A stretch of DNA of 64,000 bases from Powellomyces hirtus (lineage: Eukaryota > Chytridiomycota > Chytridiomycetes > Spizellomycetales > Powellomycetaceae). A program made the position numbers and the translations under genes. This document shows positions 2,232 through 6,848 of the stretch, in pieces (the first letter of the stretch is position 1; every line of letters starts with the position of its first letter). A model generated the notes under the pieces. It did no database searches and was not told the origin of the DNA. It saw nothing but the letters and a program-made list of their open reading frames with translations. The stretch lies in NCBI GenBank assembly GCA_025526995.1, contig JAHLKG010000002.1, positions 186,001-250,000 on the forward strand, written 5' to 3'.

Positions 2232-3560
2232 CTATTTTACATTCCTAATTTGATTCACTTTTTGCACTACTGCGGCGTCTGGCATATGCCCTCGCTCCAC
2301 CATCTCATCATACCACTTGACTGCTCCAATCGGATCCTTGCCACTGACATGAGCCCAAAAAAACTCCTGATAAGTCTGGGTATCAATTGGATAGCTCTTG
2401 CTGCGCGCCTCGAAGAGATCCACTGCTCGTTCCCGCTCGCCATGCCGGGCCAGCAGCGCCAACATGCGTGTATATGTCACACCGAGCGGGACCACAGGCA
2501 CGTCCGCAGTGCTCCGTTCTTCACAGTGCAAGAGCAGTTCTTCCCACAGTTCGCTGGCCATTTCCAGATCTTGTGCCGTTTCACAACCCGAAATCACTGC
2601 GTCGTAAGTCTCCAAGTCTACTGGGGAAGCAGCAATGCCATCCTTGATCTGTCGGAATATCGTTAACGCAGGTCCAATCTGTTTGACCGCTCCGTAGGCT
2701 TTGATCATCGCCTCGTGGACCTTTCGATCCAGACGTCCTGGAACTTCTCTCTGCACCTTCTTGTATAGTTTCACGCCTTCTTCCAGTTCCGAACACCTCC
2801 CACACGCCTCGATCATGATAGCCCACGCGTCCATGTCAGCGCGAGCACCGGGAACTTTAGCCCCCATCCGCTTCCATACCATCTGTGCGCCAGTAAAGTG
2901 CTTTGCTTGGGCATACCCCGCCAATAACAGCGTGTACGCACGAAGGTCCGGCTGGACCCCGTCCTCCAGCATCCGTTGAAACATGAGTGCACATCGTCGC
3001 GCATCGTTGTTCCGCAAATGACACAGCATGACAGCATGATAGTCGCGCAGATCCGGTTGGTGGCCGTACCGTCGCATATTCTCCATGGCCCGAGAGGCAT
3101 GCAGGGCTCCCAGCAGCGGGAGGGTATGGGTGGTGAGGTATCCCAACACCGTCGTATGGTCGTCAGCCTCCATCTGGTGCAGCGTGTCCTTGCGGAACAT
3201 TTCCTTGTAGACCTGCCAGGCGAGTCGAATGTTATGCTGCCGGAATGCATCGTGGAGGGCAAAAATCGAGGAACCGGCGACATCGATCGCTCCCGTTATG
3301 GGTCGTTTTCGCGGCCAAACTGTCCACCGTCCGGTTGTCGGCAAGAGATCTACGTCCCAGAGGGAAGCAAGCATATCGTCGTAAGGTCCTCGAGGAGGAC
3401 TCGCTGGGATTTCTGGATTCGGTGGTTGGGCTTGGGCATGTCGGAGAGGAGGGGTTGCTGTTGCGAACGGTTGTGAGGGCCCGCATCGACAGTAGCCGGT
3501 GCGGGTTTTTGTCAGTAACTTGAGCCGAAGCGACTCGTGAGAAGTCAATCGCCCAAACAT
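2232..3560 (-). CDS. Pentatricopeptide repeat (PPR) protein, probably mitochondrial
   Basis: This is a single-exon gene of 442 codons. I chose the ATG at 3558-3560 because the frame further upstream opens only on a GTG. The N-terminus (MFGRLTSHESLRLKLLTKTR) is basic and hydroxylated like a mitochondrial presequence. From about residue 110 onward there are degenerate 35-residue helix-turn-helix PPR units, for example PDLRDYHAVMLCHLRNNDAR, PDLRAYTLLLAGYAQAKHF and DLETYDAVISGCETAQDLEM. PPR proteins bind organellar RNA in a sequence-specific way and act in processing, stability or translation. The target cannot be read from the sequence. It lies head to head with the Rab-like gene, 312 bases apart. 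Confidence 0.85.
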   Translation of the reverse strand: MFGRLTSHESLRLKLLTKTRTGYCRCGPSQPFATATPPLRHAQAQPPNPEIPASPPRGPYDDMLASLWDVDLLPTTGRWTVWPRKRPITGAIDVAGSSIFALHDAFRQHNIRLAWQVYKEMFRKDTLHQMEADDHTTVLGYLTTHTLPLLGALHASRAMENMRRYGHQPDLRDYHAVMLCHLRNNDARRCALMFQRMLEDGVQPDLRAYTLLLAGYAQAKHFTGAQMVWKRMGAKVPGARADMDAWAIMIEACGRCSELEEGVKLYKKVQREVPGRLDRKVHEAMIKAYGAVKQIGPALTIFRQIKDGIAASPVDLETYDAVISGCETAQDLEMASELWEELLLHCEERSTADVPVVPLGVTYTRMLALLARHGERERAVDLFEARSKSYPIDTQTYQEFFWAHVSGKDPIGAVKWYDEMVERGHMPDAAVVQKVNQIRNVK

Positions 3561-3872
3561 GACATTTATGTGTTGAGGGGTGCTATTTGTGTAGTTCACT
3601 CCTCGACGACGACGGCGACGACGAACCTCCTCGCCAAAATCTAAAATACAGGCAGGCTGAATCTACTTTGGCTGGTTGTGGCGCACGAAAGGCTGAGCAA
3701 CACATTCTCACCTCGTCGCGCAGCTTTCCCGCAGCACCTCCATACTTTTCGCACTGTTGAAATGCGTCTTTTATAGCTGCTACACTGCCCCCCTATACCC
3801 CCGCCCTATTCAGCAATTCCAACAGCGCCAACTCCAATAGCAAGTTCTTAATCGAACACTTCTCTGTCAGCA
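3561..3872. promoter_or_regulatory. Shared promoter interval between PPR and Rab-like genes
   Basis: A 312-base gap separates two divergent start codons. It contains a TTTATAGC stretch near 3770 and a C-rich tract (GCCCCCCTATACCCCCGCCC) near 3786-3808. Regulatory function is inferred from position only. Confidence 0.3.
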
Positions 3873-4993
3873 ATGTGGGCATTCAATCGCAAGGACCCCG
3901 GCCACGACTTCCTAGTAAAACTAATGATACTCGGCGACTCGACGGTAGGAAAATCACAACTCTTCCAACGAATACTACGCAAACCCTTCTCGCACCGCTA
4001 TGCGCCGACCGTGGGAATCGACTTTGGAACGCTAACGCTGAAAATCGCCACTGGACGCATTCTGAAGGCTCAGGTATATGCCGCCAGAAAAGTCACGCTC
4101 ATGGAGGCTCACACTGACGTATTGTTTCGTTTTGATGTCAGATTGTAGATACCTCCGGCCTTGACAGCTACCGCTCGATCACACAACAATATTGGAGTCT
4201 AGCTAGCGGGGCCATAATAGTATATGATATCACGAGCCGCGACTCGTTCAACCGAGTGCGGACATGGGTGCGGGACTTCAAGAGCAAGCACGTCAACAAG
4301 ACCGTAGAGCCCGTCATCATGATTGTCGGGAACAAATCAGATGCCAAAGCGCAGCGAGAAGTTCCGACTCCGGAAGCACAGGCCTATGCGCTGGCGCAAG
4401 GGTTCCTGTTCATGGAGACCTCTGCTGCAGACAACCATAATGTCGAACTGGCCTTTACGGTCCTCCTAACGGACGTGTACTATGCGACTGTGGGATCGAA
4501 AGCCAAGGAGAGGGCCGAAGTCAACGTTACCTCACAATGGAAACCGCAGGCGCGCACCTCGTCACTATTGAACGTCGACAGGCTTATGTCGCCGCTAGCC
4601 AGCCCCACACGACCTGATCTCACTCCGCGACATAAATCGTTCGATGAACGACTGTTTGCGATGTTCAAGTGGATTGGGGGTGACAGTGACAATGACACTC
4701 CAGCCCACGAGTCGATACAGATAGATAACGAAAAACGGGGACAGCAATCTCCACCTGTTCCGGTCGTCAATGGAAGACCAAGTCCGCAGGCAGAATCCCC
4801 CGCCATGGTGCCCGAAGCAGCGGAGGGAAGCGATACATCCCCGTCGTCGCATCGCTCACATGAGCTGAGGACGGAAGCGCGGATGGGACGGCATGGAAGT
4901 AATGGGTATGATCCCGGATCACCCCTTGCAGAGATAAATACCGAAAGCATAGGCCGATTAGGAAGGTCAAAGACGACGGTTCCGCGTCGCTAA
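3873..4993 (+). CDS. Atypical Rab-like small GTPase with Leu in place of catalytic Gln and no prenylation cysteines
   Basis: There are two exons, 3873-4073 and 4142-4993, joined in phase 0 for 350 residues, much longer than a usual Rab of about 210. The nucleotide-binding motifs are clear: P-loop GDSTVGKS, a Rab-type switch I (YAPTVGIDFG), the guanine motif NKSD and an ETSA G5 motif. Switch II reads DTSGLDSYRSIT where Rab2/Rab4-type proteins read DTAGQE(S/R)FRSIT, so the catalytic Gln (Q61 of Ras) is Leu. In known Rabs that change blocks GTP hydrolysis. The last 150 residues are Ser/Pro-rich and disordered, and end in SKTTVPRR with no C-terminal Cys. Geranylgeranylation by the usual route is therefore not expected. 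It may be a constitutively GTP-bound or non-membrane Rab-like protein; partners are unknown. Confidence 0.88.
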
Positions 4994-5269: not shown

Positions 5270-6848
5270 ATGGTGGGACTGACGGGAAAGGTCACAGCCG
5301 AGATTGGGGACATCGTTTGCCGGTACGTTTTTCGTTGATACTTACGAGTTCAGAACATCAGGAAACTAAAAGGTTCTACGAATCCCTCCGGATGCTTTCT
5401 CCCTCGAAGGCTGTGTCAGTATGCGAGCGAAATTAGTACGCCCAGCTCCCTGCAGGCGGCACCAACAGGTTTGGACAAACTCCACCGAAGCGCAACCGAA
5501 GTAAAACCAAACGAAGCCGCACCGACCGCCAGCGGCGCCGCTCTTCGGATGATGCTGCTGACCGACATGGAAAAGCTCACAAACCAAACCCGGAAATGCA
5601 TCTCCCTACAACAACCATCTCCTTCCTCTCCCAGCCCCCACCCCACCACCTCAATCCCACCCATCGAAATCACCACCCTTGTGCATTCTCTGGAAGCCAC
5701 AGCGCTGACAGCAGCCATCTTGCTTCCCCGAACCCGGGAGCGCGTCTTGGTCTCGGTTGCGGAGGTGTTGGCAGTCGTGAGAGCTGTGTTGGAGGGGGCG
5801 GGGGAAACGGTTCTGGTGAGGGGAATGCATGCGTTTCTGGATACGTTGGGTGCGATGGATGAGGTGGGACCGGAGGTCGATGTATGGGGACTTAAACAGG
5901 GAGTCGAGAGAGTTATCAAAAAGGCACCGGTAACGGCTCGAAAAGAGGATTTGGTGAGTTTGAAGAGAATCACATTACAGTGGGGAAGAAAAGAGCGTGA
6001 TTTTGTATAATCAGCACTGTATAAAAGTGTGCTCGCTAACTCATACATTTCTCCAGACCGTTCTCCCGACACCTTACACAACTCTCCTCACGCATCTTCA
6101 CATGCTCGAATCCTCGCAACTCCGTCTTCTCGAGCAACACGCCTCACACCACACACTCCCACTCACGCGGCAACCCACTAACATAATGCACCAACACCAC
6201 CACATGGCGACACCCAAAGTGGCACTTGCGCTCGTGAAGAAGGAATGCGAGCCTGCGCTGGCCGTGCGCCGGAAATTGGTCTTTGGCGTGGGTGGGATTG
6301 GCGGCGCGGCCAGTGGCACGGGAAGCTGGAAGTTGGGCGTGTGCAGGTTGGGAACGGGGATGATTGTGGTCTACCCGCCGCCGCCTGGAATTGGAGTGCA
6401 GGATTTGGGAACGCCCATGCGGGATCCCGAGGTAAAATGTCTGCTTACACACAAACACCACACGAAAAGCATCATTTAATGCTAATCCAATCAATCTTTC
6501 CCATTGCTCACACAATAGCCAACATCAACCCCACTTCACACGCACATTCTCCGCAACGCCAGCATCAACCGCACCTCCCCAACCGCTATCGGCGTGCACC
6601 TCCAAAACGGACTAACCCTCCTCCTCGATTTCGGCGACGCCGTGCGCAGCGCGGATTGGGAGATGGCCCTGAGACCGTACTGCGAAGGCACCGCCTCTCG
6701 GCGAGGAAGTGCGTATTCTAGCCGACCGTCTCTGGCGCGCCGCGCTGTGAGTGGAAGTATGGGCAATGTGGCGGGGACGGGTATGGGTAACGTGGAGCGA
6801 GGAAGCGGGTATTTGTCGTACCCGTCCGCTACTAGTTTTGTTATTTAG
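5270..6848 (+). CDS. Uncharacterised four-exon protein
   Basis: No family was recognised. The best model has exons 5270-5322, about 5437-5953 (acceptor at 5436 or 5445), 6057-6431 and 6519-6848. The last two introns have good donors and a GCTAACT branch site at 6035-6041, and the frames agree across all joins (about 424 residues). The start MVGLTGKVTAEIGDIVCR is the least certain part. The middle is a hydrophobic helical segment rich in Val, Leu and Ala (about 5690-5950). The C-terminal exons carry a VHLQNGLTLLLDFGDAV strand-helix segment and a Gly/Ser tail. There is no signal peptide or clear membrane helix. Confidence 0.6.

Follow-up and report, generated by a model that had tools for sequence, protein, structure and literature searches.

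Rab25 (Rab11C) is, to our knowledge, restricted to vertebrates, and its C-terminus bears cysteine. It belongs to the Rab11 group and has a natural Leu at the switch II Gln position (DTAGL in the PDB entries 2oil and 3tso, whose chains end before the C-terminus), like the chytrid clade described here; unlike that clade, it retains the switch Trp, the YYRGA motif and the Ala of DTAG. A missing C-terminal prenylation site, as in the chytrid clade, is known from RABL2, RABL3, IFT27, IFT22 and RabTitan (PMC7818423, PMC3425129; available sections). RabL4/IFT27, RabL2 and RabTitan lie outside the classic Rabs in the available text of PMC3425129, whereas the chytrid clade is best placed within the Rab11 group. 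RabTitan is defined there by the absence of a C-terminal Cys, which the chytrid proteins share, and by a very distant relationship to Rabs, which they do not; we set RabTitan apart by this description. Lineages of Rheb, a Ras-family GTPase, have lost the prenyl motif and show another attachment, or none evident in Tremellomycetes, and the accessible portion of PMC5869587 mentions no switch II Leu. Rnd, RhoH, RhoBTB and RGK proteins belong to the Rho and Ras families, while the chytrid clade is a Rab. RGK proteins are unprenylated and have tails that bind 14-3-3. Inactivation by GAPs does not reach Rnd1-3 and RhoH, which act as if constitutively active (PMC13236570, available text). Big Ras GTPases (BRG) are three to four times as large as classical small GTPases and have a poorly conserved G4 motif and nuclear signals (PMC8146680, available text), unlike the protein presented here, which has 350 residues and an intact NKSD. 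Each half of the present case has precedent in the literature available to us: a natural Leu in Rab25, a lost prenylation site in the Rab-like proteins and a swapped anchor in Rheb. No earlier description of the chytrid family was found among the matches listed for literature on DTSGL, atypical or unprenylated Rabs, chytrid or Spizellomyces Rabs and RabTitan; nor did the accessible parts of these sources show Leu combined with a missing anchor in a Rab11-group protein that several chytrid orders retain along with a conserved tail.

The window analyzed is a stretch of 64,000 nt of the Powellomyces hirtus genome (contig JAHLKG010000002.1, positions 186,001 to 250,000), to which the coordinates of the locus refer. 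The GTPase gene is located at 3873-4993 (+) and encodes, in two exons, a 350 aa protein with no Cys. Exon 1 (3873..4073, +) encodes residues 1-67, in which the GTPase domain has its P-loop and its switch I, the intron (4074..4141, +) is 68 nt long with GT...AG borders, and exon 2 (4142..4993, +) carries residues 68-350 and the stop, from switch II to the tail, in a single open frame with a Pfam Ras match (2.3e-29). A public-protein search returned a P. hirtus gene model (P0001) with 100% identity across 350/350 residues and the identical splice, so the exon join has support beyond the sequence-only reading, in which it was first drawn; P0001 also matches TIGR00231 (small_GTP). The domain features of the Rab family (P-loop, switch I Thr, DxxG, NKxD and SA) are all present. 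AlphaFold, run with a 16-sequence family alignment, predicts a confident G domain (10-residue blocks with pLDDT 85-98 across residues 11-190), and 131 of the 350 residues, nearly all within the tail, fall below pLDDT 50. Upstream and divergently oriented lies a gene for a pentatricopeptide-repeat protein (2232-3662, -; Pfam PPR_2, 1.3e-23), and downstream at 5342-6476 (+) there are two open frames without a Pfam match, possibly exons of one gene. An antisense ORF at 4480-4989 (-) has no Pfam match and was taken as chance.

A Leu-bearing, anchorless GTPase is conserved across chytrids and is no quirk of a single genome. With a cut-off of E <= 1e-3 the first protein search gave 51 proteins; the best 16, query included, score at least 177 bits, and the next one 116. 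A profile search, with at least 11 of the 16 members among the matches listed, added the partial relative P0052 of Rhizophlyctis rosea. The family comprises the P. hirtus protein, fifteen near-full-length relatives and this partial one, from one metagenome (P0015) and 15 chytrid genera: Powellomyces, Geranomyces, Fimicolochytrium, Spizellomyces, Thoreauomyces, Gaertneriomyces, Borealophlyctis, Rhizophlyctis, Irineochytrium, Chytridium, Lobulomyces, Quaeritorhiza, Cladochytrium, Nowakowskiella and Polyrhizophydium. Taxonomy was checked for seven of the 15 genera, all of them Chytridiomycota, and they fall into Spizellomycetales, Rhizophydiales, Cladochytriales, Chytridiales (two), Lobulomycetales and one unplaced family. 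The carriers of Leu span Spizellomycetales, Chytridiales, Lobulomycetales, Cladochytriales and the unplaced Quaeritorhizaceae. The searches cover proteins of limited length sharing exact words, and absence from them means little; a search with the divergent P0016 returned P0016, P0007 and P0006 among the 7996 candidates that were scored and is uninformative on Batrachochytrium and other Rhizophydiales. Two environmental fragments (P0019, P0051) match the tail.

The motifs of the P. hirtus GTPase are intact except for switch II, which reads QIVDTSGLDSYRSIT. The P-loop GDSTVGKS (3933..3956, +; residues 21-28), TVGIDF and the guanine-specificity motif NKSD (4331..4342, +; residues 131-134) are all present, as the sequence-only reading had stated. 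GK[ST] occurs in 16/17 members, the exception being P0014, whose model is without the P-loop stretch, and no variation occurs across the 16 aligned members at Thr46 of switch I (4008..4010, +), at Asp70 and Gly73 or in the SA motif. The NKSD position varies among relatives (TKxD, NHSD, NKAE, NMLD), and its degradation in four of them, P0004, P0009, P0010 and P0016 (NHSD, NKAE twice, NMLD), would fit a weakened guanine specificity. Switch II carries DTSGL (4148..4162, +; residues 70-74) instead of the DTAGQ of canonical Rabs, with Leu74 encoded by CTT at 4160-4162; the proposed Gln-to-Leu change is thereby confirmed, the public model being in agreement. Alignment of orthologues, the check suggested along with that proposal, gave Leu at this position in 16/17 members (SGL), His in one (SGH) and Gln in none, the His member being P0016 of Polyrhizophydium, the sole Rhizophydiales member found. 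The neighboring Ala is Ser in all 17. By comparison, D[TS]AGQ is present in 106 of the 111 other search matches; the exceptions are P0019, P0051, P0020, P0122 and P0126, the first two of which are no true controls, since they are tail fragments of the same chytrid family. The majority share is 0.93 for the Leu column against a mean of 0.72 over the family G domain, in which 49/168 columns equal or surpass that of Leu in conservation. This conservation argues that Leu is held rather than drifting, and the uniformity seems to exceed what drift after loss of function would be expected to leave.

Concerning the lipid anchor, the last eight residues are without Cys in 16/16 members having a C-terminus, while Cys occurs within the last six residues in 98/111 of the other search matches. 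None of the 16 members has a prenylatable C-terminal Cys, a defining feature of the Rab family, and the claim of a Cys-less C-terminus holds for the P. hirtus protein and its relatives alike. Of the 452 residues of P0010, 441 and 444 are Cys, but the C-terminus of this model is doubtful and its 3' end may be wrong; the source of P0009 marks that entry as partial. In the P. hirtus protein, moreover, residue 2 is not Gly, and no segment reaches the hydrophobicity of a membrane span. A hidden Cys-ending exon was rejected, as GT/AG scans of the P. hirtus locus gave 0 models; the one-intron scan gave candidates for seven of eight other P. hirtus Rabs, Rab18 being the exception, and these control candidates may partly be chance joins. 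Sister genera share the very end of the protein (RSKTTVxR in two Geranomyces, RSKTTFVRR in Fimicolochytrium), which together with the empty scans makes a missed CC or CXC exon unlikely. A C-terminal Cys is reported for 131 of 147 fungal Rabs (PMC8146680, available text), so there are exceptions.

The C-terminal tail (4499..4990, +; residues 187-350) has no Cys and is mostly predicted to be disordered; the tail of about 150 disordered residues described at the outset is, with some 160 residues disordered in the AlphaFold model, a sound observation. Amid fast-changing sequence it keeps three islands, RxSSL, RHKSFDERLF..FxW and a terminal RSKT, which are mostly R-x-x-S/T sites. Island 1 (RTSSL; 4553..4567, +) is of a type, SSL, found in 14/18 tails (shuffles: mean 2.6, max 9). 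Island 2 (RHKSFDERLFAMFKWIGG; 4628..4681, +) contains an R-x-x-S site and may form a short helix, modeled by AF2 with low confidence at 237-242, and SFDER-like islands occur in 15/18 tails (shuffles: mean 1.4, max 6). Island 3 (RSKT; 4964..4975, +) lies near the C-terminus, with RSKT-like sequences within the last 45 residues of 13/18 tails (shuffles: mean 0.12, max 2). In total, R-x-x-S/T sites number 120 in the 18 tails against 63 +/- 7 in shuffles, 0/1000 of which were as high; the sequences compared are related and not independent, so these statistics speak for conservation and not for independent gain. By eye, island 2 coincides at least in part with the most amphipathic stretch of the tail, or is aligned to it, in 16/18 cases. 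A strongly amphipathic membrane helix was considered and found weakly supported, the best window exceeding the 95th percentile of shuffles in 8/18 tails, and in P0010, which is among these eight, lying elsewhere than the island. Direct membrane binding by a tail helix is unproven, since in the other 10/18 tails that window does not pass the 95th percentile. Another long-tailed Rab of P. hirtus is Rab7-like (L010, G000:C10:662400-665300); its reading frame stays open for 300 residues or more past the modeled G domain, and a Cys-ending exon (SSCAC) may lie far downstream.

RabF motifs, among them KLQIW and YYRGA, are characteristic of Rabs, and the switch Trp and YYRGA positions are part of the Rab effector surface. 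In the chytrid family the Trp before DTAG is replaced by Val, Ile or Phe in 17/17 members, and YYRGA is found in 0/15 by pattern and 0/16 in the alignment, the site being mostly YWxLA (YLHLG in P0008). Loose patterns for RabF1 to F5 matched 4, 0, 6, 0 and 11 of 15 members, a poor showing for the RabF signature; in eight canonical P. hirtus Rabs the same patterns, which miss some true motifs, matched 8, 5, 6, 5 and 5. With its effector surface rebuilt in this way, the clade would probably have partners other than those of Rab11. Of the suggestion that the protein serves as a permanent effector platform, the Leu and the missing anchor are confirmed and conserved, but the loss of Trp and YYRGA makes such a platform doubtful in the usual Rab form.

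The sequence-only reading had compared the protein to Rab2/Rab4-type Rabs, whereas by sequence it is better described as Rab11-type. Trees were built with 15/17 members, P0003 being omitted for its closeness to P0002, and P0014 for its lack of a P-loop. In the first (46 rows, none of them Rab2, Rab4 or Rab14) the family is supported at 100/100 and stands with Rab11 at 97/91. For the second, nine rows were taken out (Spg1, IFT27, RJL, Rheb, Rho, Rac, RABL2, Ran and one environmental), four human Rabs were added and the two changed switch II positions were masked; the family is again one clade (100/100), and the Rab11/Rab25 grouping, which was named only after the result of the first tree, receives 96/92. 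Canonical Rab11/Ypt31, represented in P. hirtus by L008, is the nearest group. L008 has WDTAGQ, YYRGA and candidate Cys-ending exons, shares 44% G-domain identity with the DTSGL protein and is the best BLAST match for 15/15 members among 18 P. hirtus GTPases. In masked BLAST against all panel members the top match for each of the 15 is Rab25, Pelomyxa62 or a Rab11, with Rab2A second for P0001. PDB matches likewise place Rab11A chains on top, with Rab25 among them, although two displayed Rab11A chains carry Leu at the Gln site, which may inflate their scores. Placement with Rab11 is the best one by these comparisons, and Rab2/Rab4 identity was rejected as the best reading, though the data do not reject a tree that is constrained to Rab2/4/14 (p-AU 0.173). 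Rab25 stands apart from the chytrid clade in the best tree, and a constrained sister relationship between them is likewise not rejected (p-AU 0.106).

A search of the whole P. hirtus genome with human Rab2A, blind to introns, gave no clear Rab2 gene. Its matches coincide with other GTPases, the DTSGL gene being second best. One and the same set of Ras-family gene pieces, with equal scores, occurs on a large contig (G000:C9:380808-381351) and on C49 (C49:21286-21829), and C49 may be a duplicated or haplotype contig. A further odd small GTPase (L021, G000:C15:449700-452300) has DVGGH for DTAGQ inside an open frame of 850 residues.

Regarding the nucleotide state, the statement that Gln-to-Leu locks known Rabs with GTP proved too strong. 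TBC GAPs bring their own Arg and Gln, GAP inactivation of the yeast Rab1 Gln-to-Leu mutant persists, and Gln mutation barely changes the basal hydrolysis of Rab1 and Rab35, while it lowers that of Rab5 more than fivefold, the Rab5 mutant retaining GAP-driven hydrolysis (2014; PMC3919270, PMC3919269; available sections). Exchange on Rab35 by DENND1 needs the switch II Gln, so that Gln mutants are poorly loaded (PMC3919270, PMC3919269, same sections), and Rab35 Q67A is inactive, not dominant active; for TRAPP on Rab1 this Gln is unnecessary (PMC3919270, same sections). Rab25, with the same Leu as the chytrid proteins, is called GTPase-deficient in the available text of a 2023 paper (PMC10515638). 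The step from Leu to a GTP-locked protein is therefore plausible but not safe: in Rabs, GAP-driven hydrolysis can often do without the switch II Gln, and published Gln-mutant Rabs may still be inactivated by GAPs or may never be switched on.

In the scheme that we favor, a Rab11 copy would have been duplicated and rebuilt early in Chytridiomycota. Guanine nucleotide binding would be retained, judging by the conserved motifs, while the hydrolysis site would have been altered in switch II, with Ser replacing Ala and Leu replacing Gln, and maintained in that form, all recognizable lipid-anchor sites lost and a long tail gained. The product may be a slow-hydrolysing, mostly GTP-bound GTPase outside the membrane cycle of REP, GDI and prenylation, in which hydrolysis and membrane extraction would no longer set place and partners; these may be set by the tail instead, via its SFDER..FxW element and R-x-x-S/T phosphorylation, possibly of the 14-3-3 type. 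In view of the Gln-mutant reports and the Rab25 precedent, we give such a mostly GTP-bound protein, with phosphorylation and localization run through its tail, about half of our confidence and leave the rest to its rivals. The fuller version, a true Rab outside the Rab cycle that is GTP-bound, free of anchor, REP and GDI, rebuilt at its effector face and governed by tail phosphorylation, is more tentative and seems to us rather less than evenly poised.

The protein may instead still cycle, a TBC GAP giving both catalytic fingers and Leu mainly changing the choice of GEF and GAP. The GAP-responsive Gln mutants of Rab5 and yeast Rab1, and the Arg and Gln that TBC GAPs supply (PMC3919270, PMC3919269, available sections), fit this well, but the adjacent Ala-to-Ser change in 17/17 members does not, the loss of the prenyl motif would speak against an ordinary membrane and GDI cycle, and Rab25 is described as GTPase-deficient (PMC10515638, available text); we regard continued cycling as unlikely, if a serious contender. 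A switched-off decoy, refractory to its GEF and mainly GDP-bound or slowly exchanging, would resemble the Rab35 Gln mutants, whose dependence of DENND1 exchange on Gln and whose inactive Q67A form (PMC3919270, available text) are its best arguments. Rab11 is, in the literature available to us, activated by TRAPPII and SH3BP5, and since TRAPP needs no Gln on Rab1 and retention of Leu alone gives this decoy no preference, we consider it improbable. Slightly harder to maintain is a pseudo-GTPase scaffold that uses the domain as a mere fold without nucleotide switching: the degraded NKxD of P0004, P0009, P0010 and P0016 and the loss of the RabF2 and RabF4 patterns in 15/15 members point that way, yet GK[ST] is retained in 16/17, and none of 16 members departs from the switch I Thr, DxxG or SA. 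Finally, a missed exon or splice restoring Gln or a Cys tail is hardly credible, for although the gene model is known from sequence and annotation, Leu is an in-exon codon common to relatives of many genera, the scan that yielded Cys-ending candidates for 7/8 other P. hirtus Rabs yielded 0 here, and the stop-adjacent residues are conserved.

Rabs with Gln-to-Leu in switch II are laboratory tools of disputed meaning, and chytrids have made the same change and kept it in several orders, along with the loss of the membrane anchor. With its paralogue beside a normal Rab11, the family would offer a natural experiment on Rab function without hydrolysis or prenylation. One member, P0005, is from Spizellomyces, which is tractable and should suit tests of the family.
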